The notes under the pieces: generated by a model | Databases searched by the model: none | What the model saw: only the letters and a program-made list of their open reading frames with translations | Told to the model about the DNA's origin: nothing | Made by a program: the position numbers and the translations under genes | Part shown: one piece after another, positions 31,815 to 47,867 of the stretch | Layout: each line of letters opens with the position of its first letter | Position numbering within the stretch: position 1 is the first letter of the stretch | Origin: Streptomyces sp. NBC_00271 | GTDB taxonomy: Bacteria; Actinomycetota; Actinomycetes; Streptomycetales; Streptomycetaceae | Direction: 5' to 3' | NCBI RefSeq assembly: GCF_036178845.1 | Contig: NZ_CP108070.1 | Span: forward strand, 3,038,001 to 3,102,000 | Length of the DNA: 64,000 bases

Positions 31815-32465
31815 CTACGGCCTTTCGGCCTCACCGGCTTCCAGCTGCAGGTACTCCTCGGGGATCTCCCCCGTCTCGCTGAAGGACCGCCACTCCTTGA
31901 CGCCCGGGAACGTGCCCGCCGTGACCTCCGCCAGGAAGCCGCGGACCCATTCGGCCTCCGCCTCGATCATGTGCAGCTTGAACTCGGACTCGATCAGGAA
32001 GAGCCGGGGCAGCGTCTCGTAGAGCTTCTCCAGACCGCCGCGCAGACTCGCGGCCCGCACCTCCAGCATGGTGAGCCGCTCCCCCAACAGGCGTGCCACC
32101 TCGTCGGGATGGAGCACACCCATCAGTGAGAGCGCGGCCTCGAAGATCGGATACTCCTCCGCCGGGACGGCGAGCAGGTCCGACAGCCACTCCGTGGCCT
32201 CCGCACGTCCGGCGTCCGTGATGCCGTACAGCGTGCGCTCGGGGCGGTTGCCCTGTCGCTGCACCTCCGCGACCTCGACGAAGCCGTGCTTCTCCAGGTT
32301 CTGCACGACGGTGTAGAGCGAGCCATATTTGATCTTCAGGCTGGTGTCCTTGCCCCGTCGGCGCAGGGTCTGGGCGATCTCGTACGGATGCATCGGCTTC
32401 TCGGTGAGCAGCACCATGACCGCGAGCGCCAGCGGATTGCTCAGCTTCCGGCGTTTCGTCGCCAT
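31815..32465 (-). CDS. PadR-family transcriptional regulator
   Basis: The ATG at 32465 (GAGG 5 nt upstream) gives 216 residues. The winged helix has LALAVMVLLTEKPMHPYEIA, LKIKYGSLYTVVQNLEKHGF and the wing GNRPERTLYGITDAG, the PadR signature. A long helical C-terminal domain (about 95-200) provides dimerisation. PadR repressors often control ABC exporters induced by their substrates; the DrrAB pair 190 bp downstream is the natural target. Confidence 0.88.
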   Translation of the reverse strand: MATKRRKLSNPLALAVMVLLTEKPMHPYEIAQTLRRRGKDTSLKIKYGSLYTVVQNLEKHGFVEVAEVQRQGNRPERTLYGITDAGRAEATEWLSDLLAVPAEEYPIFEAALSLMGVLHPDEVARLLGERLTMLEVRAASLRGGLEKLYETLPRLFLIESEFKLHMIEAEAEWVRGFLAEVTAGTFPGVKEWRSFSETGEIPEEYLQLEAGEAERP

Positions 32466-32550: not shown

Positions 32551-32630
32551 TCCCCGCGGGCCGCAAGGGCGTGAGGACTTAGGCCCGACCCCGACACGGC
32601 CGTGTCACGCGAGGGAAACAGGCACTCCCT

Positions 32631-32653
32631 AATTTCTGTCACCCGACAGGAAT
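32631..32653. promoter_or_regulatory. operator copy 2 shared with the carboxylase operon
   Basis: The half-site ATTTCTGTC (32632-32640) and its partner GACAGGAAT (32645-32653) are spaced by 4 bp. Arms, spacing and the preceding CCCTA are identical to the perfect palindrome at 41123-41144 apart from one arm base. It sits 63 bp upstream of the APC permease. Confidence 0.75.
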
Positions 32654-32716
32654 CCGACTCACGCCGTCCAGCACACCCACCCCGCCCACCCTTCCGCGCC
32701 GAAGGCAGGTGCCGCC

Positions 32717-34267
32717 GTGACCACCACCGCCCCCTCCGACGTACGCCCCGACCCTCCGGAGTCCTCCGGCGACCGCTCCCTGGCCGAGTTCGGCTACCGC
32801 CAGGAGCTGCACCGCAGCCTCGGCCGGTACGCCTCGTTCGCCGCCGGCTTCTCCTTCATCTCCGTCCTGACGACCGTCTTCCAGTTCTTCGCCTTCGGGT
32901 ACGCGTTCGGCGGCCCCGTCTTCTTCTGGACCTGGCCGGCCGTGCTGGTGGGCCAGTTGGCGGTCGCCGCCTGCTTCGCGGAGCTGGCCGCGCGCTATCC
33001 GATCTCGGGCGCGATCTACCAGTGGTCCTCGCGCCTGTCGAACCTCTCCTTCGGCTGGTTCGCCGGCTGGATCATGGTGATCGGACAGATCGTGGTGGTC
33101 GCGGCGGCGGCGCTCGCGCTGCAGATGGTGCTGCCCGCGATCTGGTCCGGCTTCCAGCTGGTCGGCAGCGATCCGGCCCCCACCAGCCCCGACGGCGCGG
33201 CCAACGCGGCGGTCCTCGGCGTGATCCTCCTCGTGCTGACCACACTGGTGAACCTCATCGACAACCGTGTGATGTCGATGATCAACCGGATCGGTGTCAC
33301 CGCCGAGATCATCGGCGCCGTCCTGATCATCGTGCTCCTGCTCACCCACTCCGAGCGCTCCCCCGGCATCACCTTCCACACCGGCCAGGGCAGCACCGGC
33401 CTGTTCGGGGCGCTGATGGTGGGCTCGTTCATGGCCGCGTACGTCATGATCGGCTTCGACAGCGCCGGCGAGATGAGCGAGGAGACCCACCACCCGCGCC
33501 GCACCGCACCCCGCACGATCCTCACCGCGCTCGGCGCCGCGGGTCTGCTCGGCGGGCTGATCGTGCTCGGCGGACTGCTCGCCGCCCCCAGCCTCACCGA
33601 CGGCCGTCTCGGCGTCGACGGTCTGAGCTATGTCCTGACCAGCAGCCTCGGCGACGGGGTCGGCCGCGCGCTGCTCGCCGACGTCGTGGTGGCCATCGCG
33701 GTGGCGACCCTGGCGATCCAGACCGCAGCCTGCCGCATGCTCTTCTCGATGGCCCGCGACCACCAGCTCCCCTTCTCCCGCCGCCTCCGCGCGGTCAACC
33801 CGCGCACCGGCATGCCGAGCGCCCCCGCCCTGGTCGTCGGCGTCCTCGCCGCCGCTCTGCTGCTGCTCAACTTCGCCTCCCCCGACGCCTTCCTGGCGAT
33901 CGGCACCACCTGCATCGTGATGCTGTACCTGGCGTACGCGATGGTGACCGGTCCGCTGCTGGTGCGCCGGCTGCGCGGGCAGTTCACCGCCGACGGCACC
34001 GACGAGAGGGGTGCCCCGCTCTTCTCGCTGGGCCGCTGGGGCCTCCCCGTCAACGCGATCGCCCTCGTCTACGGCCTCTTCATGACCGTCAACCTCGCCT
34101 GGCCGCGCGCGGCGGTGTACGACCCGGCCGGCGGGCACTGGTACTTCCAGTGGTTCACGGTGCTGTTCCTGGGCCTGACGCTGGTCGCGGGCGCCGCCTA
34201 CCGGGCCTACCGGGCGCGGACACCGGTGGCCGAGACTCCCGAGGCGGTCCCGGCCTCGTACGCCTGA
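32717..34267 (+). CDS. APC-superfamily permease, probably of the urea/guanidine carboxylase system
   Basis: 516 residues from GTG 32717, with about twelve membrane helices. FGYRQELHRSLGRYASFAAG and FSFISVLTTVF form helix 1 and its lead-in. MIGFDSAGEMSEETHHPRR is the typical amino acid/choline-type permease loop. From memory, TIGRFAMs describe an APC permease tied to urea carboxylase systems, and this protein has that general make-up. Its promoter carries the same operator as the carboxylase operon 8.5 kb away. Import of guanidine or a related nitrogen compound is therefore proposed; an ordinary amino acid or polyamine substrate is the alternative. Confidence 0.85.
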   Translation: MTTTAPSDVRPDPPESSGDRSLAEFGYRQELHRSLGRYASFAAGFSFISVLTTVFQFFAFGYAFGGPVFFWTWPAVLVGQLAVAACFAELAARYPISGAIYQWSSRLSNLSFGWFAGWIMVIGQIVVVAAAALALQMVLPAIWSGFQLVGSDPAPTSPDGAANAAVLGVILLVLTTLVNLIDNRVMSMINRIGVTAEIIGAVLIIVLLLTHSERSPGITFHTGQGSTGLFGALMVGSFMAAYVMIGFDSAGEMSEETHHPRRTAPRTILTALGAAGLLGGLIVLGGLLAAPSLTDGRLGVDGLSYVLTSSLGDGVGRALLADVVVAIAVATLAIQTAACRMLFSMARDHQLPFSRRLRAVNPRTGMPSAPALVVGVLAAALLLLNFASPDAFLAIGTTCIVMLYLAYAMVTGPLLVRRLRGQFTADGTDERGAPLFSLGRWGLPVNAIALVYGLFMTVNLAWPRAAVYDPAGGHWYFQWFTVLFLGLTLVAGAAYRAYRARTPVAETPEAVPASYA

Positions 34268-34303
34268 ACCTCTCCCCCGCCCGAGCCTCGTACGCTTGAC
34301 CAG

Positions 34304-35251
34304 GTGAGACGCAGACCCCGGATCCCGCCCTCCCCCCTCCCGCAGCGCGAGGGAGTCGACCCCGTGCGGATCAGGCTCCCGCGGGACGGGGGGTGGGCCA
34401 CCGTGCGGGAGCATCTGGTGGAGCGGCTCGCGGCGGGGGCCGGGGTGATCGACGGGATGCTCGGGGACGGGCTGATCGTCGGCGCCGACGGGCGTCCGGT
34501 GGCGCCCGACGCGGCGTACGAGCCGGGGATGTTCGTGTGGTTCCACCGGGAGCTGCCCGACGAGGAACCGGTGCCGTTCGCCCTCGACGTGGTGTACCGC
34601 GACGAGCACATCGTCGTCGCCGACAAGCCGCACTTCCTCGCCACGACCCCGCGCGGGGGCCATGTCGCCGAGACCGCGCTGGCCCGGCTGCGGCGGGAGC
34701 TCGGCCTGCCGGCGATCGGCGCCGCGCATCGGCTGGACCGCCTCACCGCCGGGCTCGTGCTGTTCACCGTGCGGCCCGAGGAGCGCGGCGCCTACCAGAC
34801 GCTGTTCCGCGACCGGCTGGTCCGCAAGGAGTACGAGGCGGTGGCCCCGTACGACGCGGGGCTCGCGCTGCCGCGGACGGTCACCAGCCGGATCGTGAAG
34901 GAGCGCGGGGTGCTGGCCGCGCGCGAGGTGGCGGGCGAGCCGAACGCCCTCACGGAGGTCGAACTCACCGACCACCGCGACGGACTGGGGTGCTATCGTC
35001 TGCTGCCGCGCACCGGGCAGACCCATCAACTGCGGGTGCACATGAACGCGTTGGGCGTGCCGATCCTCGGCGATCCGCTCTACCCGGTGGTGACCGGCCC
35101 CGTGCCGGCCGGCGACTTCCGGCGACCGCTCCAACTGCTCGCGCGGGTACTGGAGTTCACCGATCCGGTCACGGGACGCGCGCACCGGTTCGTCAGCGGG
35201 CGGGCACTGCGGGCCTGGTCCTCGTACGACGACTGGGCACAGGAGGCGTGA
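34304..35251 (+). CDS. RluA-family RNA pseudouridine synthase
   Basis: 315 residues. HRLDRLTAGLVLFT contains the catalytic aspartate; VVYRDEHIVVADKPHFLATT and PRTGQTHQLRVHMNALGVPI are the other conserved RluA blocks. There is no obvious N-terminal S4 domain, only about 85 residues of weak similarity. It converts uridine to pseudouridine in rRNA or tRNA; the site cannot be told. The GTG at 34304 has no ribosome binding site, so a leaderless transcript is likely. It converges with the P450 gene. Confidence 0.9.
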   Translation: MRRRPRIPPSPLPQREGVDPVRIRLPRDGGWATVREHLVERLAAGAGVIDGMLGDGLIVGADGRPVAPDAAYEPGMFVWFHRELPDEEPVPFALDVVYRDEHIVVADKPHFLATTPRGGHVAETALARLRRELGLPAIGAAHRLDRLTAGLVLFTVRPEERGAYQTLFRDRLVRKEYEAVAPYDAGLALPRTVTSRIVKERGVLAAREVAGEPNALTEVELTDHRDGLGCYRLLPRTGQTHQLRVHMNALGVPILGDPLYPVVTGPVPAGDFRRPLQLLARVLEFTDPVTGRAHRFVSGRALRAWSSYDDWAQEA

Positions 35252-35267
35252 TCGTCGACGGCCGGGA

Positions 35268-36737
35268 TCAGTAGCCCCGCCACCAGCGCAGGAAGCGCTG
35301 CCAGGCGCCGAGTCGGCGCACGGGTTCCGGTGCCGCCGACAGGTCGGGCGATGCCACGGGTGCCGGGGCGGGCGCCGCGACCGGCTCGTCCGTCGTGACC
35401 TCCAGGCTCGGCCGCTGCCGCGGGACGGGGTTGATGGAGGGCACATCCTCGACGTCCTGGGGCGCCTGCGGCGCGAAGTACACCGGAAGCTCCACCAGGT
35501 GGCGCGAGGACATCGACGAGCGCCAGCGCAACTCGTCCTCGTCGCCCTCGAGTTCGACATCGGGCAGCCGGATCAGCAGTGCCTCGACCCCGACGTCCGC
35601 GATGGCACGGCCGATGTCCTGGCCCGGGCACTCGTGGGGGCCGCCGCCGAAGGCGAGGTGGGCGCGGTTGCCCATCATGTTGGCCTTGAGGTCGGGACGC
35701 ACCTTGGGGTCGATGTTGCCCGGTGCGATCCCCAGGATCAGACCGTCGCCCCGACGGATCTCCCGACCGCCCACCTCCGTGTCCTGCTTGGCGAAGTAGC
35801 CGAGGACCGCGCTGAACGGCGGCTCGTCCCACAGCGACTGCTCGACCGCCTGGGGCACCGTCATCTGCCCGCCGTTCAGCTGGGCGCGGAAGCGCGGGTC
35901 GGTGAGCACCACGCGCAGCACGTTGGCGAGCAGGTTGGCCGTGGCCTCGTACGCGGCGAGCAGCACCAGGCGCAGATGCTGGGAGACCTCGTCGTCGGTG
36001 AGCTGGGCCGGGTGGTTGATCAGGACGCTGGTGAAGTCCCCGGTGGTCTCGGCCCGGCGCCGGGCGGTGTGCCGGATCAGGATGTTCATGACGTACTCGT
36101 TGCTGGCGATCGCGGTCTCGGTGCCCCTGAGCAGGTCGCGGGTGGCCTGCACCAGCCGGTCGTCGTACTCGTCGGGCATGCCGAGGATCTCGCACAGCAC
36201 GGCCATCGGCAGGTGCTCGGCGAACTGGCTGACCAGGTCGGCCCGGCCCTTCTCACAGAACCGGTTGACGAGCAGTTGGGTCGCGCGGTTGATGTGCCGC
36301 CGGATGGTGCGGTGGTTGATGGTCGACATGGCACCCATGACCGCGCCGCGCAGCCGCAGGTGTTCGTCGCCCTCGGCGTGCGAACAGATGGGCTGCCAGG
36401 CGATGTGCGGCGCGAGGGGGTGGTCGGGGCCGGCCGTGCCGTCCTGGACGGCCCTCCACAGCCGGCTGTCCCGGGAGAAGTGTGTGGGGGTGCTCACCAG
36501 GTGCAGGTTCTCGGCGTGGCCGAGCACCACCCAGATCGGCACGTCGTTGTGGAGCAGGACGGGGGCGACCGCGCCGTGCTCCTGACGGAGTTTCTCGTAC
36601 AGGTCTCCCAGGTCGTCCGCCTCGGGGCCGTACAGCCGGTGCAGTCCGCCGGGACCGAGGCCGTGGGCGGGACAGCCCGGCGGCGGGGCGAGCGTACGGT
36701 CGTCCGTACCGGCCGGGATGTGGGATTCAGACGTCAC
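35268..36737 (-). CDS. conservon-linked cytochrome P450 lacking ExxR (CYP157-like)
   Basis: 489 residues from GTG 36737. The heme ligand is Cys370 in FGGGPHECPGQD. The K-helix position that normally reads ExxR is EQSLW (299-303), so the arginine is missing. CYP157 proteins of Streptomyces are known for this, and S. coelicolor CYP157C1 has the same EQSLW. The I-helix reads AAYEAT. About 80 C-terminal residues are Pro/Ala-rich and end in WQRFLRWWRGY, possibly a membrane or protein contact. It follows the four conservon genes and fits RarE (cvn9). Catalytic activity is uncertain. Confidence 0.9.
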   Translation of the reverse strand: MTSESHIPAGTDDRTLAPPPGCPAHGLGPGGLHRLYGPEADDLGDLYEKLRQEHGAVAPVLLHNDVPIWVVLGHAENLHLVSTPTHFSRDSRLWRAVQDGTAGPDHPLAPHIAWQPICSHAEGDEHLRLRGAVMGAMSTINHRTIRRHINRATQLLVNRFCEKGRADLVSQFAEHLPMAVLCEILGMPDEYDDRLVQATRDLLRGTETAIASNEYVMNILIRHTARRRAETTGDFTSVLINHPAQLTDDEVSQHLRLVLLAAYEATANLLANVLRVVLTDPRFRAQLNGGQMTVPQAVEQSLWDEPPFSAVLGYFAKQDTEVGGREIRRGDGLILGIAPGNIDPKVRPDLKANMMGNRAHLAFGGGPHECPGQDIGRAIADVGVEALLIRLPDVELEGDEDELRWRSSMSSRHLVELPVYFAPQAPQDVEDVPSINPVPRQRPSLEVTTDEPVAAPAPAPVASPDLSAAPEPVRRLGAWQRFLRWWRGY

Positions 36738-36770
36738 GGTGATCGCTCCGAAACTGAAGTGGATCCGGTG

Positions 36771-36834
36771 TCTTGGGGGTGTCCGGGTTCTTGGGGGTGG
36801 TCCGCTGTCTTGGGGGTGGTCCGCTGTCTTGGGA
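36771..36834. repeat. short tandem repeat between conservon GTPase and P450
   Basis: Two exact 19-bp copies of TCTTGGGGGTGGTCCGCTG (36789-36807, 36808-36826) are flanked by a degenerate 18-bp copy (36771-36788) and a partial copy (36827-36834). It occupies over half of the 121-bp spacer. Confidence 0.9.
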
Positions 36835-36858
36835 CGGGAATGGCGGCCGCCGCGGGCA

Positions 36859-37479
36859 TCAGGTGTGTGCCTGGCTCATCGTGAGCGAGTACAGGAAGTG
36901 CATCAGCGTCATCAGGACGTCCCGGCTGGAGGCCCGGCGGCGCGCGTCGCACTGCACGATCGGGATGTCCTCCGACAGGTCGAGCGCGGCGCGCAGGTCC
37001 TCGATCGGATAGCTGGGCGCGTCCGGGAAGGTGTTCATGGCGACGACGAAGGGCACACCGCGCTCCTCCAGACGGCCGATCACGTCGAAACTGACTTCCA
37101 GCCGTCGGGTGTCGATCAGCACGACCGCGCCGAGCGCGCCTTCGAAGAGGCCGTTCCACAGGAACCAGAAGCGCTCCTGGCCGGGGGTGCCGAAGAGGTA
37201 GAGCACCAGCCGCTCCGTGATGCTGATGCGGCCGAAGTCCATGGCGACGGTGGTCGCGGTCTTGGTCTCCGAGCCGTAGTTGTCGTCGATGCCGATGCCG
37301 GCCTGCGTCATGGTCTCCTCGGTGGTCAGCGGTTTGATCTCGCTGACGGCACCCACCATGGTCGTCTTGCCGACTCCGAACCCGCCCACGATCACGATCT
37401 TCACGGCGGCTTGCGCCGTGTGCGGCAGATGGTCCTCGGCGCGCGGGCCGGTGATCGTCTCAGAGCTTTTGAAGTCCAT
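36859..37479 (-). CDS. cvnD9: conservon Ras-like GTPase (CvnD9/RarD)
   Basis: 206 residues. G1 is GGFGVGKTT, G3 is FGTPGQE, and AMNTFPDAP holds the N-x-x-D base-recognition motif. This is the small bacterial GTPase of conservons, which in S. coelicolor forms a membrane-associated complex with the other Cvn proteins resembling a G-protein-coupled system. The ATG at 37479 lies 20 bp inside the preceding cvnC gene. The number 9 is assigned from the neighbouring P450 and overall synteny. Confidence 0.9.
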   Translation of the reverse strand: MDFKSSETITGPRAEDHLPHTAQAAVKIVIVGGFGVGKTTMVGAVSEIKPLTTEETMTQAGIGIDDNYGSETKTATTVAMDFGRISITERLVLYLFGTPGQERFWFLWNGLFEGALGAVVLIDTRRLEVSFDVIGRLEERGVPFVVAMNTFPDAPSYPIEDLRAALDLSEDIPIVQCDARRRASSRDVLMTLMHFLYSLTMSQAHT

Positions 37480-37897
37480 GCATCACCGCTTCGAGGAGGG
37501 AACGGTCGGGGAGCGCCGAGCGAACGATCGGGGCGCGTGCCTGTACCAGTTCTGCCGCCAGCAGCTCGGTGAGCAGGACGGTCACCACGCTGAACGGCAG
37601 ATTGAGATAGGCCGAGAGCTCGGCCACGGACAGCGGGGTCTGGCAGAGCCGGAGCAGCACCGACTGCTCCGGCTGGGTGGTGGGTGTCGGCGCGTCGGCG
37701 CGCGCCACGATCAAGGTGACCAGGTCCAGATCGGCCCGCTCGCCCGCCTCGCCCCCACCGGTGAGCAGATACAGGCGCCCGGGATTCTTGGGGTCCTCTT
37801 CCTCACCGTCTTCCTCACCCTCTTGGGGAGGCCGCTCCCGGGGAGGCTCGGTGAACTCTTCCTTGGGGTATCGCCGTCGGCGTTGCGGAGGAGTCAT
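37460..37897 (-). CDS. cvnC9: conservon DUF742 protein (CvnC9/RarC)
   Basis: 145 residues: about 35 charged Arg/Glu/Pro-rich residues, then a DUF742 domain starting at GRLYLLTGGG and containing LLRLCQTPLSVAELSAYLNL and VVTVLLTELLAAELV, a winged-helix-like fold. It ends in LLEAVMHGLQKL as do other CvnC proteins. The start overlaps the roadblock gene by 4 bp and its end overlaps the GTPase gene by 20 bp. DUF742 proteins are thought to bridge the roadblock protein and the GTPase. Confidence 0.9.
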   Translation of the reverse strand: MTPPQRRRRYPKEEFTEPPRERPPQEGEEDGEEEDPKNPGRLYLLTGGGEAGERADLDLVTLIVARADAPTPTTQPEQSVLLRLCQTPLSVAELSAYLNLPFSVVTVLLTELLAAELVQARAPIVRSALPDRSLLEAVMHGLQKL

Positions 37898-38301
37898 ACG
37901 GTCTGCCCGTTGCGCCTCGGCGGACTGGTCAGATGGGCGCCGATCCGGGCGACGAGGTCGCTCATGCGGTTGCTCATGAGGCCGGGCTCCGCGATCTGGT
38001 TGGCGAGGACCGCGAGATAGGCGTTGGCCCCGGCGGACATCAGATAGAAGTAGCCTCCGTCGATCTCGATGAGGACCATCTTCATCGTGCCGTCGCTGCT
38101 GGGAACCTCGCTCGCGACCGCCGCGGCCAGGCTCTGCAGGCCCGCGCAGGCCGCGGCGACGCGGTCGGCGGCGTCCGGGTTGCCGCCGTAGCGTGCGATG
38201 CGCAGTCCGTCGGCGGAGAGCACCACGATCTGCTGGATGCCGGGTACGCCGTCAGCGAGATCCCTGAGCATCCAGTCGAAGTTGTCCCGCTGATGGATCA
38301 C
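37894..38301 (-). CDS. cvnB9: conservon Roadblock/LC7 protein (CvnB9/RarB)
   Basis: 135 residues comprising one Roadblock/LC7 domain: FDWMLRDLADGVPGIQQIVV, then SADGLRIARYGG and YFYLMSAGANAYLAVLA. Such proteins regulate small GTPases, acting like MglB toward MglA. It overlaps the kinase-like gene and the DUF742 gene by 4 bp each, so the four products are translationally coupled. Confidence 0.92.
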   Translation of the reverse strand: MIHQRDNFDWMLRDLADGVPGIQQIVVLSADGLRIARYGGNPDAADRVAAACAGLQSLAAAVASEVPSSDGTMKMVLIEIDGGYFYLMSAGANAYLAVLANQIAEPGLMSNRMSDLVARIGAHLTSPPRRNGQTV

Positions 38302-39920
38302 TTGAGGTCCCCCTCGTCGTCGGCCTCCGCGGCCGCCTGGTTCTTCCTGGTGGACGCGTTGGGGTCCGGGTCACGCTTGAGGCCCTCCCAGAAGGCCTCG
38401 ACCCAATGCCCCGGTGGCTTCTCCTTCTCCTTCTCCTTCTTCTCCTGCTCCTGCTTCGGGGCGGCGGGCGCGGTGCCCCAGGAAGGCGCCGCGGAAGCGG
38501 CCGCGGCCGCCGCCTCCTCCTCGGCGGCGATCCGGGCGGCCTCGGCGTACCGCTCCCTGAGCGGGATCTTGACCCGGCTGCGCCGCTGCGGCAGGCCGTT
38601 GGGCGTCCACTCGGTGACCAGGGGGGCGTCGTCGTCCCTGTACCCGTCGTCCTGCTCGGGGAGGCGGGGTCCGGTGGTCGGGCGGCGCTTCTTCGGCTTG
38701 CGGTCGGGCCCCTCGACCCCGTCGGTGTCCATGGTCGCGGTGGAGTTCGCGCCGATGCCGTGGGCGAGGGAGGCTGCGGGGTCCTTGGTGAGCATGTTGC
38801 TCGGCACCACGACGACCGCGCGGACACCGCCGTACGCGGACTGCCGGAGCGCGATCGCCATGTCGTACATGTTCGAGAGCCGGCCGACGACGGAGATGCC
38901 GAGCCGGGGGGCCTCGCCGAGAACCTGGAGGTCGGTGCCGGCCGCGGCCTGCCGGAGCAGTTCCTCCATCTTGCCGCGGGCCTCGTCGCTGAAGCTGACG
39001 CCGGAGTCCTCGATCTCGATGGCGACACCGGTCTGCACCTTGAGGGCGGTCAGGTGCACCTTGCTGTTCGGCGGCGAATAGCGCGTCGCGTTGTCGAGGA
39101 GTTCGGCGACCGCGTGGATGACCGGTTCGACGTGGATGCCGTTGACGTTGACGTCGGCGATCGAGTGCAGCTCGATGCGCCGGTACTCGAGGATCCGGGA
39201 CATCGCGCCGCGCATCACGCTGAACAACGGCACGGGCTTGGGCCAGTTGCGGCCCGGGCGGCCGCCGCCGAGCACCGCGATGGAGTCGGCGAGGCGGCCG
39301 ATCAGCGCGGTGCCGTGGTCGATGCGCAGCAGGTCGTCGAAGACCTCGGGGTTGCGCCCGTGGTCCTCCTCCATCTCGCGGAGTTCCTTGTTCTGCTGGT
39401 GGACGATCGCCTGCACGCGGCGGGCGATGTTGACGAAGGAACGGTGCGAGGAGTCGAGCAGCAGCTTCTCGGTGTCCAACAACTGGAGGAAGGTGCTCAG
39501 CAGGTCCCGTTCCACCTCGGAGATCTGCGGCAGGCTGGGGTCGTCGACGCCGAAGCGGAGCGCCACAGAGTCGGGGTTCATGCCGCGGTTCATGCGCCGG
39601 ATCGCGGCGGGCAGGACTTCGTGGTGGAAACGCACGATGTCCTGATCGTGGGCGGCGATGCGTTGTTCCAGGTACGCGGTACGGCGGGCCAGTTCGGCGC
39701 GCACGGCACGGATGACGCGGCCACGGCGTACGGCTTCGGCGGCGACCGCGATCACCAGCAGCGTCGCGATGCCGCCGCACCAGCCGACGGCGGCCCGGGC
39801 CGGGCCCGTCACCAAGGCGACGGCGGCCCCGGTCACCGCGGCCATCAGTATGGCCGGCAGCAACAGCACGCGCGCGTAGGGAAGTTCACGGCCACCGGGA
39901 GGCGATTGAACACTCACCAT
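38298..39920 (-). CDS. cvnA9: conservon sensor-kinase-like membrane protein (CvnA9/RarA)
   Basis: The ATG at 39920 (AGAGGG 5 nt upstream) gives 540 residues. Two adjacent membrane helices (about 18-65) are followed by a coiled-coil linker, a DHp-like helix pair (about 165-235; DHGTALIGRLADSIAVLGG) and an HATPase_c domain (about 255-380) with AVAELLDNATRYSPP as N-box. The C-terminal tail of about 150 residues is charged and low-complexity, including KKEKEKEKPP. It is the receptor component of the conservon. No classical response regulator is present; the partners are the overlapping CvnB-D proteins. Confidence 0.9.
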   Translation of the reverse strand: MVSVQSPPGGRELPYARVLLLPAILMAAVTGAAVALVTGPARAAVGWCGGIATLLVIAVAAEAVRRGRVIRAVRAELARRTAYLEQRIAAHDQDIVRFHHEVLPAAIRRMNRGMNPDSVALRFGVDDPSLPQISEVERDLLSTFLQLLDTEKLLLDSSHRSFVNIARRVQAIVHQQNKELREMEEDHGRNPEVFDDLLRIDHGTALIGRLADSIAVLGGGRPGRNWPKPVPLFSVMRGAMSRILEYRRIELHSIADVNVNGIHVEPVIHAVAELLDNATRYSPPNSKVHLTALKVQTGVAIEIEDSGVSFSDEARGKMEELLRQAAAGTDLQVLGEAPRLGISVVGRLSNMYDMAIALRQSAYGGVRAVVVVPSNMLTKDPAASLAHGIGANSTATMDTDGVEGPDRKPKKRRPTTGPRLPEQDDGYRDDDAPLVTEWTPNGLPQRRSRVKIPLRERYAEAARIAAEEEAAAAAASAAPSWGTAPAAPKQEQEKKEKEKEKPPGHWVEAFWEGLKRDPDPNASTRKNQAAAEADDEGDLK

Positions 39921-40186
39921 GTATGCCCTCTGAGACAGATCGGCTGGGGTAGGGGGGAGTTCGTGGGGAAACTGCGTGGTCAAACCGAATCTTCGGAACT
40001 TTTGGGAACAAGCGCACGATTACATCTCAACTCGGCGCGCTGCGGGCGAGCTTAGTCCGACCGGATCATCGCCGTGTCATATTCAGCAACCGCCTGAAAT
40101 CGCCCGCACGACAGGAGTACTCTCGCCCATTTACACGCTCAGGCTTCGTTCGCACACGGTGAGTAGCGGCGTACGGGCATGCGAAA

Positions 40187-40207
40187 ACCGCGCCTCCACA
40201 GCGCGGT
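40187..40207 (-). terminator. intrinsic terminator of tetR
   Basis: ACCGCGC and GCGCGGT form a 7-bp stem with a 7-nt loop only 3 bp after the tetR stop. On the minus strand the stem ends in a short T run. Confidence 0.75.
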
Positions 40208-40210
40208 ACG

Positions 40211-40837
40211 TCAGATTCCGGCGATCCGCAGCGCCGCGTCGGCGGTTGCTTCGGCGAAGGCGGACACGGGCCGCTCGGGGTCGGACCGGTGCACGAGGAT
40301 CACCCCTTCGATGAGACCGAACAGCAGATCCGTCCGCAGGTCGAGTTCACTCTTGACGAGCACGCCACCCGCCGTGGTCGCGGCCAGCAACTGCCGGTAG
40401 GTGTCCTTCAACTCGGCCCGTACGGCATGGAAGCCGGCGAAGCGCTCGGCGCGCACCTCGGGCAGCAGATACAGCCCGCCCAGGTTGTGCGGGCCTCCGC
40501 AGAGCAGCTCCACGTCGGTGCGGCACAACTCCCACAGCCGGTTCTCGGGCGGGGTCGCGTCGTCGGCGAGGAGCTCCCGGGCGAAGGCGAGCGAGGGTGT
40601 GACGGTCGACTCCAGGAGCTCGGCGAGCAGCTCCTCCTTGCCGGAGACGTAGTGGTACATCGACGCCTGGCGCATCCCGGCCCGCTCGGCGACGGCGCGG
40701 GTGGTCGTCGCGGCGTACCCGCGCGTCGTGAACAACTCGGCGGCGGCGTCGAGTAGTTCGTCCCGCGGCGACAGCCCGCTGTCCGGCCGCTGCGCAGCCC
40801 GGGGCCGCCCGACCCGTCGCCCACCACCACTTCCCAT
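40211..40837 (-). CDS. TetR-family transcriptional regulator, candidate repressor of the carboxylase regulon
   Basis: ATG 40837 with GAGGA 8 nt upstream gives 208 residues. The TetR helix-turn-helix spans about 25-70: LLDAAAELFTTRGYAATTTR, then MRQASMYHYVSGKEELLAEL. The remaining helical domain binds an unknown ligand. It is transcribed away from the carboxylase operon. A 22-bp perfect palindrome of TetR-operator size lies before that operon and again before the APC permease, making this protein the obvious candidate binder. I see no copy close to its own promoter. Confidence 0.88.
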   Translation of the reverse strand: MGSGGGRRVGRPRAAQRPDSGLSPRDELLDAAAELFTTRGYAATTTRAVAERAGMRQASMYHYVSGKEELLAELLESTVTPSLAFARELLADDATPPENRLWELCRTDVELLCGGPHNLGGLYLLPEVRAERFAGFHAVRAELKDTYRQLLAATTAGGVLVKSELDLRTDLLFGLIEGVILVHRSDPERPVSAFAEATADAALRIAGI

Positions 40838-40895
40838 GCGTTCGATCCTCGCACACGGGACCACCCCCGAGCGGGACAAGGAACGGCGCCCCGCC

Positions 40896-41010
40896 CACCA
40901 GGGGCGCGGGGAACTGCGCGCCCAGCCCCACACAACCCGCCCCTCCAAACCCACAACGCCCCCACCCACCAGGGGCGCGAGGAACTGCGCGCCCAGCCAC
41001 ACCCAACCCG
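40896..41010. repeat. two copies of the dispersed GGGGCGCGGGGAACTGCGCG element
   Basis: Copies at about 40896-40940 and 40966-41010 share CCACCAGGGGCGCGNGGAAC and CTGCGCGCCCAGCC followed by CAACCCGC. A third relative lies near 14943. They fill the 331-bp gap between tetR and the carboxylase operon; two further AACCCGCGGAGCG repeats follow (41019-41055). I see no gene in this gap. Confidence 0.85.
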
Positions 41011-41122
41011 CACCCTCGAACCCGCGGAGCGCCCCGTACCGCCAAACCCGCGGAGCGTCCGGTGAGGGGTCGGTAACCGTCCGGCAACACTCGGGACACG
41101 GCTCCGACCCTCCCCACCCCTA

Positions 41123-41144
41123 ATTTCTGTCGAGCGACAGAAAT
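41123..41144. promoter_or_regulatory. 22-bp perfect palindromic operator of the carboxylase operon
   Basis: ATTTCTGTCG (41123-41132) and CGACAGAAAT (41135-41144) are exact inverted repeats around AG. The site ends 24 bp upstream of the first gene. It is the size expected for a TetR dimer, and a near copy precedes the permease at 32717. Confidence 0.85.
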
Positions 41145-41168: not shown

Positions 41169-41993
41169 ATGGCGACAGCGACCACTTACGGAGCCCGTGC
41201 CCACGCCCGGGCACAAGAGGGCTCCCGCACGGAGGCCATGCCCGTCGTACCGGCGAGCGCCTGGCCCGAGCCCCCCTGCGAGGCGGGCCACCTGGTGTGG
41301 GCGGAGACGGTGGCGGCCGGCAACTACACGCACAAGGTGCTGGCCCGCGGCACGGAACTCAGGCTCACCGACCTCGGGGGCGACGCCTGCGCACACCTGC
41401 TCCTGTACGCCGCCGATCGCCCCTGGGAACGCCTGAACGTGGCGGACACGGTCAAGGTCCAGTGGAACGCCTACCTCGGCGAGGGGCAGCTGCTCCTCTC
41501 CGACCAGGGCCGCGTCCTCGCCTCCCTGGTCGCCGACACCTCGGGCCGCCACGACACGCTCTGCGGCACCTCCACCCTCGTACGCAACACCCAGCGCTAC
41601 GGCGACGGAACCCCGCAGTCCGCCTCCCCCGCCGGCCGCGAACTGTTCAAGCTGGCCGCCGCCAAGAACGGCCTCGAACCCCGCGACCTGCCGCCCTCGC
41701 TCTCCTTCTTCCAGGGCGTGGAGGTCCGTGACGACGGCTCGCTGGACTTCACCGGTTCGGCGGGCCCCGGCGGCAGCGTGACGCTCCGCGCCGAACAGGA
41801 CGTGACCGTGCTGATCGCGAACGTGCCGCACCCCGCCGACCCCCGTACGGAGTACGTCAGCACTCCCCTGGAGGTCCTCGCCTGGCGCGCGGCCGCGACC
41901 GCGCCCGGCGACCCGCTGTGGGAGGCCACGCCCGAGGGCCGCCGCGCCTTCCTGAACACCGCCGAGTTCCTTGCCGCGAGGGGGATCGCATGA
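41169..41993 (+). CDS. DUF1989 urea carboxylase-associated protein, carboxyguanidine deiminase subunit candidate
   Basis: 274 residues from ATG 41169 with GGAGGA 7 nt upstream. DUF1989 blocks are clear: LRLTDLGGDACAHLLLYAAD, VQWNAYLGEGQLLLSDQGRV, DTSGRHDTLCGTST and SFFQGVEV. The first gene of the operon, it overlaps its paralogue by ATGA. DUF1989 pairs next to urea-carboxylase-like enzymes have been identified as CgdA/CgdB, which hydrolyse carboxyguanidine to allophanate. The call follows from that literature and gene order; which subunit this is I cannot say. Confidence 0.85.
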   Translation: MATATTYGARAHARAQEGSRTEAMPVVPASAWPEPPCEAGHLVWAETVAAGNYTHKVLARGTELRLTDLGGDACAHLLLYAADRPWERLNVADTVKVQWNAYLGEGQLLLSDQGRVLASLVADTSGRHDTLCGTSTLVRNTQRYGDGTPQSASPAGRELFKLAAAKNGLEPRDLPPSLSFFQGVEVRDDGSLDFTGSAGPGGSVTLRAEQDVTVLIANVPHPADPRTEYVSTPLEVLAWRAAATAPGDPLWEATPEGRRAFLNTAEFLAARGIA

Positions 41994-42595
41994 AGACCGT
42001 GGTTCCGGCCCGGGCCGCCTGGTCCGCCGTCGTCCGCACCGCACAGACGCTCACCGTCACCGACCTGCACGGCAACCAGGCCGTCGACTTCCTGGTGTAC
42101 GACGCCCACGACACGGCCGTCCGCTACAGCGCGCCCGACACGATCCACGCGCAGGGCAACCTCTTCCTCACCACCGGCAGCGTGCTGATGTCCAATGAGC
42201 ACACCCCGCTGATGACCGTGGTCGCGGACGAGGTCGGCCGGCACGACACGGTCGGCGGCGCCTGCTCCAAGGAGTCGAACACCCTGCGGTACGGCCACCA
42301 CACCTGGTCCCAGCACGCCTGCGTGGACAACTTCCTCGCGGAGGGCGCCAAGTACGGCCTCGGTAAACGCGATCTCGTCTCGAACATCAACTGGTACATG
42401 AACGTGCCGGTCGAGAAGGACGGCACCCTCGGCATCGTCGACGGCATCTCGGCCCCGGGGCTCACGCTGACCCTGCGCGCCGAGTGCGACGTCCTCGTGC
42501 TGGTCTCCAACTGCCCCCAGATCAACAATCCCTGCAACGGCTTCGAGCCGACCGCGGTGGAGATGACCATCGAGGCGAGCGGGGCGACGGGATGA
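41990..42595 (+). CDS. DUF1989 urea carboxylase-associated protein, second subunit
   Basis: 201 residues from ATG 41990, overlapping the previous stop. LTVTDLHGNQAVDFLVYDAH, NLFLTTGSVLMSNEHTPLMT, DEVGRHDTVGGAC and CVDNFLAEGAKYGLGKRDLV are the DUF1989 motifs, with SNINWYMNVPVEKDGTL characteristic of the second paralogue. Conserved Cys and His residues in DTVGGACSKESN could bind the metal or form the active site. It would act with the first DUF1989 protein between the carboxylase and allophanate hydrolase. Its stop overlaps the carboxylase start. Confidence 0.87.
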   Translation: MKTVVPARAAWSAVVRTAQTLTVTDLHGNQAVDFLVYDAHDTAVRYSAPDTIHAQGNLFLTTGSVLMSNEHTPLMTVVADEVGRHDTVGGACSKESNTLRYGHHTWSQHACVDNFLAEGAKYGLGKRDLVSNINWYMNVPVEKDGTLGIVDGISAPGLTLTLRAECDVLVLVSNCPQINNPCNGFEPTAVEMTIEASGATG

Positions 42596-45500
42596 CCTTC
42601 GACACCCTGCTGATCGCCAACCGCGGCGAGATCGCGGTACGGATCATCCGCACGGCCCGCGAACTCGGCCTGCGCACGGTCGCCGTGTACTCCGACGCCG
42701 ACCGTGGCACACCCCACGTCCGGCTCGCCGACGAGGCGGTACGGCTGGGGCCCGCGCCCGCGAAGGAGTCGTATCTCGACGCCGACCTCGTCCTGAAGGC
42801 GGCCAAGGACACCGGGGCCGGGGCGATCCACCCCGGGTACGGCTTCCTGTCCGAGGACGCGGCCTTCGCGCGGCGCTGCGAGGACGCCGGGATCGTGTTC
42901 GTGGGTCCGACGCCGGAGCAGCTCGAGCTGTTCGGGGCGAAGCACACGGCGCGGGCGGCGGCGGAGGCGGCCGGGGTGCCGTTGGCGCCGGGCACGGGAC
43001 TTCTCCCCGGTCTCACCGAGGCTCTGGAGGCGGCTACCCGCATCGGCTATCCCGTCATGCTGAAGGCCACCGGCGGGGGCGGCGGCATCGGTATGTCGGC
43101 ATGCCGCTCCGCCGATGAACTGACCGAGGCGTGGGAGCGGGTACAGCGCGTCGCCGCCGCCTCCTTCTCCTCCGCCGGGGTCTTCCTGGAGCGGCTGGTG
43201 GAGCACGCCCGCCATGTCGAGGTACAGGTCTTCGGTGACGGCCGGGGCCGGGTCGTCACCTTCGGCGACCGGGACTGCTCGCTCCAGCGTCGCAACCAGA
43301 AGGTGCTGGAGGAGGCCCCGGCACCGGGCCTGCCGCCCTCCGTCCGCGCCCGACTCGCCTCTGCCGCACGAGACTTGTGTGCCGCTGTCGGATACCGCTC
43401 GGCCGGAACCGTCGAGTTCGTCTACGACGCCGCCCGCGAGGAGGCCTACTTCCTGGAGGTCAACACCCGCCTCCAGGTGGAGCATCCGGTCACCGAGGAG
43501 ATCTACGGCGTCGACCTCGTCGCGTGGATGCTGCGGCTCGCGCGCGGGGAGTCGGAGGTCGTACGCGATCCGGGGGCGCCGCGCGGTCACGCCGTCGAGG
43601 CCCGGGTGTACGCCGAGGACCCCTCGCGCGACCACCGGCCGAGCGCGGGCCTGCTGACGCGGGTCGAGTTCCCCGGCGGCGTCCGCGTCGACGGCTGGGT
43701 GGAGACGGGCACCGAGGTGACCACGTCGTACGACCCGATGCTCGCGAAGGTCATCGCGTACGGCCCGGACCGGGCGCACGCGCTGGAACGCCTCGACGAG
43801 GCGCTGGCCAGGACCCGGGTGGACGGTATCGAGACGAACCTGGGGCTGGTGCGGGCCGCGCTCGCCGAACCGTCCTTCCGGCGGGCGACGCACTCGACGG
43901 CGACGCTGGCCGACGTCAGCGATCCCACGCAGCGCATCGAGGTCGTCTCCGGCGGGACCCTCACCACGGTCCAGGACTGGCCGGGCCGCACCGGCTACTG
44001 GCAGGTGGGCGTGCCCCCGTGCGGTCCGATGGACGACCTCTCCTTCCGGCTCGGCAACCGCGCCCTCGGCAACCACGAGGGGGCGCCCGGTCTGGAGTGC
44101 ACCCTCCAGGGGCCGACGCTGCGCTTCACCCATGCCACGACGGTGTGCGTCACGGGCGCACCGGCGCGGGTCACCGTGGACGGTGCGACGGTCGCGCAGT
44201 GGGAGCCGGTGACGGTACCGGCGGGGGCCCTGCTGGAGGTCGGCTCGCCCACCGAACACGGCCTGCGCACCTACGTGCTCTTCGCGGGCGGGGGCCTGGA
44301 CGTACCGGCGTTCCTCGGCAGCGCGTCCACGTTCACGCTGGGCCGGTTCGGCGGGCACGGAGGCCGCGCCCTGCGCACGGGCGACGTGCTGCACGGCGGC
44401 TCGGCGACGGATCACGGGGCGCCGGTACCGGTCGGCAACCGCCCCGGGTTCTCCTCCACCTGGCGGGTCGGCGCGCTCGAAGGCCCGCACGCCGCACCGG
44501 AGTTCTTCACCGAGGACGACATCCACGACTTCTACGCCGCCGACTGGAAGGTCCACTTCAACTCGGCGCGCACGGGCGTACGGCTGGTCGGCCCCAAGCC
44601 CCGCTGGGCGCGCACGGACGGCGGTGAGGCGGGCCTGCACCCGTCCAACATCCATGACACGCCGTACTCCGTGGGCGCCGTCGACTACACCGGCGACATG
44701 CCGGTGCTGCTCGGCCCGGACGGCCCCTCGCTGGGCGGCTTCGTCTGCCCGGCGACGGTCGTCAGCACGGAGCGCTGGAAGCTCGGCCAGTTCCGCCCCG
44801 GTGACACCGTGCGCTTCGCACCGCTGGCCGACGACGGCTCGCGGCGGCCCGCGATCGTGGACGGCGGGGTGCTCGCGCGGGACGGCGACGTGACGTACCG
44901 CCGCAGCGGCGATGACAACCTGCTGGTCGAATTCGGGCCCATGCAACTGGACCTGGCGCTGCGCATGAGGGTCCACGCCCTGATGGAAGCCGTGGCCGAG
45001 GCCGCGCTCGACGGCGTCACGGACCTGACCCCCGGCATCCGCTCCCTGCAGATCCAGACGGACCCCGGCAGGCTTCCGCAACGCGAACTCCTCGCCATGG
45101 TGCGGGAGACGGTCCGCACGCTCCCTCCGAGCGACCAGCTCGTCGTCCCCTCCCGCACGGTGCACCTCCCTCTCTCCTGGGACGACCCCGCGACCCGCGA
45201 GGCGATCGCCCGCTACATGGCGGGCGTCCGCGACGACGCGCCCTGGTGCCCGTGGAACATCGAGTTCATCCGCCGCGTGAACGGCCTGGACTCGGTGGAC
45301 GACGTGTACCGCACGGTGTTCGACGCGGAGTACCTCGTCCTGGGCCTGGGCGACGTCTACCTCGGCGCACCGGTGGCCACCCCGCTGGACCCGCGCCACC
45401 GCCTGGTGACCACCAAGTACAACCCGGCGCGCACCTGGACCGCCGAGAACTCGGTCGGCATCGGCGGCGCCTACCTGTGCGTTTACGGCATGGAGGGCCC

Positions 45501-46107
45501 CGGCGGTTACCAGTTCGTGGGCCGTACGACCCAGGTGTGGTCGGGGTGGCAGCAGCGCGGCGCGTTCGAGCCGGGCTCGCCCTGGCTGCTGCGCTTCTTC
45601 GACCGCATCAAGTGGTACGCCGTCGAGCCCGACGAACTCCTCGACCTGCGCGCCGACATCGTCTCGGGCCGTTTCGTGCCCCGGATCGAGGAGGGCGTCT
45701 TCTCACTCGCCGAGTACGAGGCCTTCCTCGCCACCCACTCCGCTTCCATCGCGGAGTTCCGGGCCGGGCAGGGCGCCGCGTTCTCCGCGGAGCGGGACGC
45801 CTGGGAGGCGGCGGGCGAGTTCGACCGCGCGGACGCCGCGTCCGCGCCCGTGGCGCCTGCGGCCGAGGTGATCGTCCCCTCGGGTGGCCGCCTGATCGAG
45901 GCCGAGTTCGCGGCCTCCGTATGGCAGCTGAACGTCAAGCCGGGCGACCGGGTGACGACAGGCCAGCCCCTGCTGGCGCTGGAGGCGATGAAAATGGAGT
46001 CCAGGGTGCCCGCCCCGATCGACGGAGTGGTCCAACAAGTCCTCACCAAGCCCGGCGCCCAGGTGGAAGCGGGCACAGCACTGGTGGTCCTGGCACCGGT
46101 GAGCTGA
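42592..46107 (+). CDS. biotin-dependent urea/guanidine carboxylase
   Basis: 1171 residues from ATG 42592 (ATGA overlap). Residues 1-450 are a biotin carboxylase: LIANRGEIAVRIIRTARELG, ATGGGGGIGM (ATP-grasp loop), EVNTRLQVEHPVTEE. About 465-790 is a KipA/AHS2-like domain (TVQDWPGRTGYW, CGPMDDLSFRLGNRALG), followed by a KipI/AHS1-like domain (to about 1050). The C-terminal biotinyl domain carries EAMKME with the biotin lysine near 1134. It carboxylates urea to allophanate, or guanidine to carboxyguanidine. The two DUF1989 genes ahead of it favour guanidine, as in described guanidine carboxylase operons. Confidence 0.92.
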   Translation: MTFDTLLIANRGEIAVRIIRTARELGLRTVAVYSDADRGTPHVRLADEAVRLGPAPAKESYLDADLVLKAAKDTGAGAIHPGYGFLSEDAAFARRCEDAGIVFVGPTPEQLELFGAKHTARAAAEAAGVPLAPGTGLLPGLTEALEAATRIGYPVMLKATGGGGGIGMSACRSADELTEAWERVQRVAAASFSSAGVFLERLVEHARHVEVQVFGDGRGRVVTFGDRDCSLQRRNQKVLEEAPAPGLPPSVRARLASAARDLCAAVGYRSAGTVEFVYDAAREEAYFLEVNTRLQVEHPVTEEIYGVDLVAWMLRLARGESEVVRDPGAPRGHAVEARVYAEDPSRDHRPSAGLLTRVEFPGGVRVDGWVETGTEVTTSYDPMLAKVIAYGPDRAHALERLDEALARTRVDGIETNLGLVRAALAEPSFRRATHSTATLADVSDPTQRIEVVSGGTLTTVQDWPGRTGYWQVGVPPCGPMDDLSFRLGNRALGNHEGAPGLECTLQGPTLRFTHATTVCVTGAPARVTVDGATVAQWEPVTVPAGALLEVGSPTEHGLRTYVLFAGGGLDVPAFLGSASTFTLGRFGGHGGRALRTGDVLHGGSATDHGAPVPVGNRPGFSSTWRVGALEGPHAAPEFFTEDDIHDFYAADWKVHFNSARTGVRLVGPKPRWARTDGGEAGLHPSNIHDTPYSVGAVDYTGDMPVLLGPDGPSLGGFVCPATVVSTERWKLGQFRPGDTVRFAPLADDGSRRPAIVDGGVLARDGDVTYRRSGDDNLLVEFGPMQLDLALRMRVHALMEAVAEAALDGVTDLTPGIRSLQIQTDPGRLPQRELLAMVRETVRTLPPSDQLVVPSRTVHLPLSWDDPATREAIARYMAGVRDDAPWCPWNIEFIRRVNGLDSVDDVYRTVFDAEYLVLGLGDVYLGAPVATPLDPRHRLVTTKYNPARTWTAENSVGIGGAYLCVYGMEGPGGYQFVGRTTQVWSGWQQRGAFEPGSPWLLRFFDRIKWYAVEPDELLDLRADIVSGRFVPRIEEGVFSLAEYEAFLATHSASIAEFRAGQGAAFSAERDAWEAAGEFDRADAASAPVAPAAEVIVPSGGRLIEAEFAASVWQLNVKPGDRVTTGQPLLALEAMKMESRVPAPIDGVVQQVLTKPGAQVEAGTALVVLAPVS

Positions 46108-46205: not shown

Positions 46206-47867
46206 ATGTCCGTCCTGACCCGAGTCCAGTCGGCCTACGCCCGCATCGAGGCAGTCGACCGCCCCGAGGTCTGGATCGACCTCCGCCCCCAGCCGGAGGT
46301 CGAGAAGGAGGCGCAGGCCATCGACGCCCGCCTCGCCGCAGGCGAACACCTCCCCCTCGCCGGCAAGCTCCTCGCCGCGAAGGGCAACATCGACGTGGCC
46401 GGCCTGAAGACCACCGCAGGCTGCCCGGCCTACGCGTACACCCCGGAGTGCGACGCCCCCGCGGTCGCCCGCCTCCGCGCAGCCGGCGCACTCGTCCTCG
46501 GCACCACGAACCTCGACCAGTTCGCCACCGGCCTGGTCGGCACCCGCTCCCCGCACGGCGCCGTACGAGGCGCCCTGGACCCGGCCAGGATCAGCGGCGG
46601 CTCCAGCTCGGGATCGGCCGTGGCCGTGGCCCTCGGCATCGTCGACCTCGCCCTCGGCACCGACACGGCCGGCTCCGGACGCGTCCCCGCCGCCTTCAAC
46701 GGCATCGTCGGCCTCAAGCCCACCCGCGGCCTGGTCCCGGCCACCGGTGTCGTCCCGGCCTGCGCCTCGCTCGACTGCGTGACCGTCTTCGCCCGTACGC
46801 TCCCGGAGGCCGAGCAGGCCCTCGCGCACCTGGCGTCCCCCGCCGGACGCGAACTCCCCGCACTCCCCCAGCGGGCCCCCGGCCCGTGGCGCGTCGCCGT
46901 CCCTCCGACGGCACAGCTCGGTGAACTCGACGAGGGCTGGGCCGAGGCGTACGAGGCCGCCGTGGAGCAGCTCGTCGCGGCCGGGGCCGAGGTGCGCACG
47001 CTCGACCTCACCCCGTTCACCGAGGCGGCGGCGATGCTCTACGAGGGCGCGTTCGTCGCCGAGCGCTACACGGCGGTGGGGAGCTTTATCGACAAATTGA
47101 TCAGCGAGGGAGGTGCGGGGCTCGACCCGACCGTCGCCGGGATCATCACCCGCGCCCGGGACATCCCGGCCCACCAGCTCTTCGCCGACCAGGCCCGGCT
47201 GGCGGCCCTGCGCACCCGGGCCCTCGCCGAACTCGGCGACGCGGACGCCCTGTTGCTGCCGACCGCACCGGGCCACCCCACCCTCGCGGAGGTCGCCGCC
47301 GACCCGCTCGGCACCAACGCCCGGCTGGGCCGCTTCACCAACTCCACGAACCTCTTCGACCTGGCGGCGGTCGCCGTCCCGGCCGGTCTCACGCCCGCCG
47401 CTCTGCCCTTCGGCGTGATGCTGATCGGTCCGGCGTTCACCGACGAACGCCTCGCCCGGATCGCCGCGCTGCTCCAGCCGGACGTGCGGATCGCGGTGGT
47501 CGGCGCCCACCTGTCCGGCCAGCCGCTGAACCTCCAGCTCCTGTCCCTGGGCGCGGAGTGGGAACGTACGACCACGACGGCACCCGCCTACCGTCTGCAC
47601 GCACTGTCCACCACCCCGCCCAAGCCGGGCCTGGTCCACGTCGGCGAGGGCGCCGGAGCCCGCATCGAGGCCGAGGTGTGGCGACTGCCCGCGGCGGGCC
47701 TCGGCCGACTGCTCGCCGACCTGCCCCGGCCGATGGCACTGGGCCGCGTCGAACTGGCCGACGGCACCCACGTGCCCGGCTTCCTGTGCGAGCCCGCGGC
47801 GCTCGAAGGCGCCGAGGACATCACGGAGTACAGCGGCTGGCGCGGCTACCTCCGGACCCGCGCCTGA
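46206..47867 (+). CDS. atzF: allophanate hydrolase
   Basis: 553 residues with AAGGAG 8 nt before the ATG. The amidase-signature core has the Lys of LLAAKGNIDVAGL and GGSSSGSAVAVALGIVDLAL with DTAGSGRVPAA, giving the Ser-cisSer-Lys triad. The C-terminal 130 residues (FGVMLIGPAFTDERLARIAA, then VPGFLCEPAAL) form the second domain found in AtzF/DUR1,2-type enzymes, which finishes the breakdown of allophanate to CO2 and ammonia. The protein is slightly shorter than AtzF of Pseudomonas. It completes the pathway in the same transcript. Confidence 0.93.
   Translation: MSVLTRVQSAYARIEAVDRPEVWIDLRPQPEVEKEAQAIDARLAAGEHLPLAGKLLAAKGNIDVAGLKTTAGCPAYAYTPECDAPAVARLRAAGALVLGTTNLDQFATGLVGTRSPHGAVRGALDPARISGGSSSGSAVAVALGIVDLALGTDTAGSGRVPAAFNGIVGLKPTRGLVPATGVVPACASLDCVTVFARTLPEAEQALAHLASPAGRELPALPQRAPGPWRVAVPPTAQLGELDEGWAEAYEAAVEQLVAAGAEVRTLDLTPFTEAAAMLYEGAFVAERYTAVGSFIDKLISEGGAGLDPTVAGIITRARDIPAHQLFADQARLAALRTRALAELGDADALLLPTAPGHPTLAEVAADPLGTNARLGRFTNSTNLFDLAAVAVPAGLTPAALPFGVMLIGPAFTDERLARIAALLQPDVRIAVVGAHLSGQPLNLQLLSLGAEWERTTTTAPAYRLHALSTTPPKPGLVHVGEGAGARIEAEVWRLPAAGLGRLLADLPRPMALGRVELADGTHVPGFLCEPAALEGAEDITEYSGWRGYLRTRA

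Follow-up and report, generated by a model that had tools for sequence, protein, structure and literature searches.

A 64,000-nucleotide stretch of the Streptomyces sp. NBC_00271 genome (contig NZ_CP108070.1, positions 3,038,001 to 3,102,000), referred to here in its entirety as the window, carries two nearly identical palindromes 8.5 kb apart, one in front of a carboxylase operon and the other in front of an APC permease gene. Which protein reads these palindromes, and what compound do the genes behind them salvage? In all likelihood, they are the operators of a Streptomyces AmtR regulon, in which a dimer of the TetR-family protein AmtR would sit at both sites and repress the permease gene and a guanidine-pathway operon, with GlnR as the likely activator. 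A preliminary description of this DNA had joined the importer and the enzymes into a two-locus regulon under the neighboring TetR protein, a proposal to which the conservation of both sites among related genomes lends support.

The site in front of the enzyme operon, site A (positions 41123–41144, no strand assigned), reads ATTTCTGTCG-AG-CGACAGAAAT; its 10-bp arms are perfect and its 2-bp center is non-palindromic. Site B, in front of the permease gene (32632–32653, likewise unstranded), reads ATTTCTGTCA-CC-CGACAGGAAT and has two arm mismatches to site A, one changed base per arm; the earlier account gave this second copy a single arm difference and a start one base too early, but rightly placed CCCTA directly 5' of both sites. 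Site A ends 24 bp before the ATG (41169) of the first DUF1989 gene and site B 63 bp before the GTG (32717) of the permease gene, as originally given. At three or fewer mismatches, the pattern matches the window in these two places alone, as it does the whole 12.28-Mb genome, where a reversed-pattern control had 0 matches; a further site between the permease gene and amtR was not found in the window scan at this threshold. Shuffling the window 100 times gave a mean of 0.00 matches and a maximum of 0, and with 0 of 100 shuffles containing any match, a chance origin of the pair was rejected, in agreement with the initial judgment that such identity is very unlikely by chance.

The two operators accompany the operon across the genus. 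Among 150 genomes sampled from it, 42 have the carboxylase (41 over the cut-off, and G001 with a gene split over two contigs) and 39 have a site at three or fewer mismatches. The arrangement is that of the window in 36 of the 42; in these, once duplicate loci L038 and L079 are dropped, 35 have a site at no more than one mismatch before the DUF1989 gene (the contig of G139, the 36th, is truncated), and 33 have one at no more than four mismatches before the permease gene. The exceptions at the permease are G001, where the contig ends; G044, which has one site and no close permease relative (best E-value 3.6e-46); and G097, in which the second operator (locus L039, 10497–10518), together with a GlnR-like box, precedes a sodium:solute symporter gene (8923–10671, minus strand), and a partial permease relative (residues 19–370) is found on a different contig and has no site. 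Where both sites fall on one contig (n = 31), they are 2.4–2.6 kb apart in five genomes, 4.0 kb in one, and 8.2–12.3 kb in 25; because the spacings cluster at 2.4–2.6 and 8.2–12.3 kb, the 8.5-kb gap of the window represents one of two main layouts. Five of the 42 carboxylase genomes instead have one compact operon running from permease to AmtR, with an AmtR of 41–45% identity and a single operator before the permease that has a different outer arm (ATACCTGTC-n4-GACAGGTA), and the sixth genome outside the window type, G069, has the carboxylase and allophanate hydrolase alone. A site without a carboxylase over the cut-off occurs in three of the 150 genomes (G046, G054, and G075), with three mismatches each, and no homologues of the six genes were found in the 6–8 kb around these sites; the reversed-pattern control matches two genomes (G034 and G127). 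The motif is thus not spread before many unrelated genes in the genus.

A perfect inverted repeat near a start codon could also act in the transcript, as an RNA hairpin or as part of a leader attenuator. We regard this as barely credible: in G097, this same repeat is found in front of an unrelated symporter gene, its geometry is fixed at 22 bp, Rfam models find no match in the window or in eight related loci, and an AmtR consensus for such a site is known. Riboswitch control, a separate candidate, was rejected with 0 Rfam matches at gathering score in the same material, guanidine riboswitches included.

As for the protein, the TetR gene that had been placed beside site A indeed lies there. It encodes 208 amino acids (40211–40837, minus strand, from an ATG chosen just before the conserved part), is divergent from the enzyme operon, and has 285 bp between its ATG and site A. 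The TetR N-terminal DNA-binding domain is present (PF00440, 1.6e-16), and the closest solved relative in the Protein Data Bank (PDB) is 5e57, ‘Transcription regulator AmtR’ (9e-36), which we take to be the AmtR of M. smegmatis. The top six PDB sequences have E-values of at most 6.3e-31, three of them named AmtR and three TetR family, and the next best is at 3.2e-12; 5dxz, one of the three entries named TetR family, matches Corynebacterium AmtR. By sequence comparison, then, the window protein is an AmtR, nearer to AmtRs of solved structure than to the other TetR entries. Passages of PMC8864220 give an AmtR consensus, TAtCTGTCa-n2-cGACAGATAT, credited to Chen et al. 2013, and the core CTGTC-n4-GACAG is common to this consensus and to sites A and B. 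That some other regulator, rather than the neighboring TetR protein, binds the palindrome strikes us as very improbable. AmtR binding is a prediction, and the AmtR of one genome, G323, does not adjoin the sites; against another regulator stand the shared core and the five compact-type genomes, which pair their diverged AmtR with the different outer arm ATACCTGTC, as well as the genome-wide distribution of AmtR considered below.

Both promoters suggest how bound AmtR could act. A TAATTT hexamer, the probable −10 element, overlaps the left arm of site B (32630–32635, plus strand; present in 29 of 33 permease promoters) and that of site A (41121–41126, plus strand; 35 of 35 operon promoters). It is made up of a conserved TA and the first four operator bases, and the conservation of CCCTA would be explained because its TA belongs to TAATTT. 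The outer arms are conserved unequally, the left with one mismatch in 272 cells and the right with 50 in 272; 33 of these 50 are one base common to all 33 permease sites, leaving 17. This asymmetry fits a left arm that may double as the −10 element.

Directly upstream, each operator has a GlnR-like box of 11-bp repeats. The box before the permease (32593–32619, plus strand) reads GACAC-n6-GTCAC-n6-GAAAC, with repeats 11 bp apart at positions −39, −28, and −17 relative to site B, and that before the enzyme operon (41062–41110, plus strand) reads GTGAG-n6-GTAAC-n6-GCAAC-n6-GACAC-n6-GACCC, in the same register to its operator. The 62 bp before site A, aligned without gaps in 35 genomes, hold 1.3–1.7 bits of information in five adjacent phases of the 11-bp period versus 0.7–0.9 in the other six, and 30 permease promoters have the identical five high phases with a softer edge (1.6–1.9 versus 0.7–1.4 bits). 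The permease promoter counts (n = 33) omit G001, where the contig ends, G097, where the row comes from a second contig, and the five genomes of the compact type, which were counted apart; G014, G139, and G144 were additionally left out of the phase analysis because a second operator copy shifts their alignment. In these three promoters (L051, L044, and L073), a decayed operator-like copy lies directly 5' of the intact operator, such as a tandem duplication would leave. The phase pattern is the layout of GlnR boxes, in one register to both operators. When the box consensus gTnAC-n6-GaAAC is matched with GaAAC relaxed to GNAAC, GTNAC-n6-GNAAC is found in 28 of 35 operon promoters; among the 33 permease promoters, 23 have it, and in 21 of these it stands at −28. 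After letter shuffling, 0.02 are expected.

Taken together, an AmtR dimer would bind sites A and B and, because each site overlaps a probable −10 hexamer, block transcription of the permease gene and the four-gene operon. GlnR at the adjacent box of 11-bp repeats would be the likely activator under nitrogen limitation, and full expression would need both nitrogen hunger and the release of AmtR by a signal from the pathway.

What that pathway consumes can be read in part from its enzymes. The operon opens with two DUF1989 genes, UAAP1 (41169–41993, plus strand; PF09347 and TIGR03425), a probable carboxyguanidine deiminase subunit, and UAAP2 (41990–42595, plus strand; PF09347 and TIGR03424, with a start inferred at an ATGA overlap), probably the second subunit; DUF1989 pairs are presumably carboxyguanidine deiminases. 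They are followed by a biotin-dependent carboxylase of the urea/guanidine type (42592–46107, plus strand; TIGR02712 and alignment to 5i8i) and an allophanate hydrolase (46206–47867, plus strand; TIGR02713 and PF21986). Two probable deiminase subunits alongside an allophanate hydrolase are also what the guanidine carboxylase pathway comprises, and the operon would carboxylate guanidine, deiminate the product with the DUF1989 pair, and hydrolyze allophanate. The permease (32717–34267, plus strand) has TIGR03428, ‘permease, urea carboxylase system’, as its best NCBIfam model, at 655.5 bits against a cut-off of 740.45 that is reached in none of the 150 genus genomes. In literature passages, an APC permease is predicted as the guanidine importer of another bacterium.

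Asp698 of the window carboxylase aligns with Asn1330 of K. lactis urea amidolyase (5i8i numbering), which we take to be the specificity position meant in the review cited next. According to passages of that review (PMC12186494), one active-site position is Asp in guanidine carboxylases and Asn in urea carboxylases. Of the 42 carboxylases in the genus sample, 41 carry Asp here; the one with Asn, from G069, belongs to a locus without DUF1989 genes, AmtR, or operator, in a genome without AmtR. A sample of the class (296 genomes) gave 31 with a match: five already in the genus sample, seven with a carboxyltransferase-only gene (of which G152 alone was read), and 19 further loci with the biotin carboxylase part, 12 with Asp and seven with Asn (G185 is cut by a contig end). 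Both DUF1989 genes are present in all 12 Asp loci, AmtR in 11, the permease in nine, and an exact core site in 11; in the seven Asn loci, DUF1989 genes, AmtR, and the core site were each found in none.

Over both samples, 53 of 61 carboxylases are of the Asp type and eight of the Asn type. The DUF1989 pair accompanies 52 of the 53 (G139 being cut by a contig end) versus none of the eight, and the operator, scored by a mixed criterion of at most one mismatch or an exact core and in G139 by the permease site alone, likewise accompanies 52 of 53 versus none of eight; the Fisher p of 3e-9 for the latter comes from hand-entered counts of related genomes and is no true probability. A genome-wide search at E ≤ 1e-15 found no AmtR in seven of the eight Asn-type genomes (in G250, 150 of 189 candidates were scored), and in the eighth, G179, AmtR and an operator adjoin a second locus, which is of the Asp type. 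This distribution tells against another regulator at these sites.

The seven mycobacterial-type loci with a carboxyltransferase-only gene are all Asp, and four of them have the core site. Nine genomes of the mycobacterial-type genus have such a match, of which G531, G764, G504, G773, G554, and G716 were read and G665, G512, and G632 left aside. In loci L207 and L210–L216 (mycobacterial-type genomes and the second locus of G179), the Asp-type match covers the carboxyltransferase domains only, so the biotin carboxylase and carrier parts would need another source.

All this suggests that the compound salvaged, presumably in the window strain as well, is guanidine rather than urea. The regulon could instead be as described and serve urea, with AmtR, like that of C. 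glutamicum, reporting overall nitrogen status by way of GlnK. The family models are named for urea, literature passages treat AmtR as a urea or nitrogen regulator, and they describe C. glutamicum AmtR as released by the PII protein GlnK. We nevertheless hold this reading to be unlikely, given the Asp-to-Asn split and the association of the DUF1989 pair with Asp; moreover, in passages of PMC4222082, binding by M. smegmatis AmtR was unaffected by urea or amino acids, and the AmtR proteins themselves differ in kind at two positions.

These positions emerge from 51 AmtRs of Asp-type loci (40 from the genus and 11 from the class sample, with hits shorter than 150 residues and duplicates L079 and L080 dropped), compared with 57 Corynebacterium loci of 71 obtained by scanning named genomes with 5dxz. 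After residue 75, 29 columns are conserved in at least 93% of rows, and the two Glu were selected among them in hindsight. All 51 proteins have Glu at residue 177 and Asp at residue 108, and at residue 127, 50 have Glu and one has Asp; three mycobacterial-type AmtRs, one of them beside DUF1989 genes, agree at all three. In the 57 Corynebacterium proteins, by comparison, 55 have Leu, Gln, or Met at residue 177 (Gln in nine) and 56 have Val, Ile, or Met at residue 127, so that both positions lack a charge in nearly every protein sampled; at residue 108, 56 have Glu and one has Gln; the Arg columns 184 and 204 also differ. The difference at 127 and 177 fits a change of effector. Tentatively, AmtR outside Corynebacterium may be a protein that senses guanidine, carboxyguanidine, or another closely similar guanidino compound, the actinobacterial counterpart of guanidine riboswitches. 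The guanidine-type cation would be bound by the acidic residues E127 and E177, possibly together with D108, and Corynebacterium AmtR would have become hydrophobic at 127, mostly hydrophobic at 177, and Glu at 108 on its shift to GlnK sensing. Literature passages state that a transcription factor binding guanidine is not known, and AmtR joined with a guanidine carboxylase had no match in the literature searched, a limited collection. The question of AmtR's signal outside Corynebacterium is thereby turned into a single test with guanidine.

Several observations weigh against this account of sites, promoters, and substrate. Three of the 19 quoted arm letters of the AmtR consensus, outer-arm or flanking the center, differ at each of sites A and B. 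We settled on the relaxed box pattern with the sequences already in view, arm and box sites were picked by their match, and the genomes are related. A scan for the sigma-70-type consensus near site A found no full promoter. The core is absent from the mycobacterial-type loci of G152, G773, and G554, a Streptomyces-like site pattern occurs in one of ten genomes of the mycobacterial-type genus, the Asp-type genome G422 has no exact core site, and in G323, AmtR is elsewhere in the genome and not at the locus.

Between the permease gene and amtR lie genes for a pseudouridine synthase, a P450, a GTP-binding protein, a roadblock protein, and a sensor-kinase-like protein; the last four (35268–39983, with a sensor-kinase-like HATPase) form a conservon-like cluster, conservon presumably being the Streptomyces name for clusters of this type. 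A gene for a PadR-family regulator (31815–32465, minus strand, start inferred) is divergent from the permease gene, and site B therefore lies in an intergenic region that the two share. Between amtR and site A (40890–41000), two near-identical stretches, CAGGGGCGCG(G/A)GGAACTGCGCGCCCAGCC, resemble a dispersed intergenic repeat.

A two-locus AmtR regulon is already known in kind, and the regulatory layout is an ordinary one. Passages of PMC4222082 describe the co-occurrence of AmtR, permease, carboxylase, and amidase in ten actinobacteria, including S. avermitilis, where amtR (sav6701) is transcribed in the opposite direction to an operon with the carboxylase (sav6698) and amidase (sav6697) genes and the permease gene (sav6709) is elsewhere. 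This AmtRsav regulon has the same gene set and arrangement as the window; it differs in belonging to another genome, and the outer arms of the quoted consensus differ from those of sites A and B. The S. avermitilis sites reportedly lie in the sav_6700/sav_6701 and sav_6709/sav_6710 intergenic regions. The operator pair of the window confirms the described regulon and, compared with S. avermitilis, adds the GlnR-like box, the guanidine assignment, and conservation across the genus; its added value lies in reassigning the AmtR set to a carboxylase probably of the guanidine type, not the urea type.

In M. smegmatis, according to passages of PMC4222082, AmtR represses the matching genes and gave a gel shift before msmeg_2184. 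The msmeg_2184–2189 genes resemble the window in their permease, carboxylase, and amidase genes, with two unknown reading frames, and in AmtR control, with GlnR described in literature passages as the master regulator; unlike in the window, amtR is distant from them. Apparently, M. smegmatis is outside our sample of 396 genomes of one genus (best identity to 5e57, 93%), and relatives were used, in which, again unlike the window, the carboxylase match is the carboxyltransferase part alone (nine of ten genomes). The AmtR of C. glutamicum is likewise of the TetR type and has the recognition-helix stretch RQAS-Y in common with the window protein, but in the available passages it has a CTAT-n6-ATAG site, more than 30 target genes, and release by GlnK, and E127 and E177 are not conserved. 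Finally, riboswitch-controlled operons described in literature passages combine the guanidine carboxylase with CgdAB and AtzF, as the window operon appears to do. These operons usually have an ABC importer, whereas the window, with no riboswitch match, has an APC permease and a predicted protein repressor.

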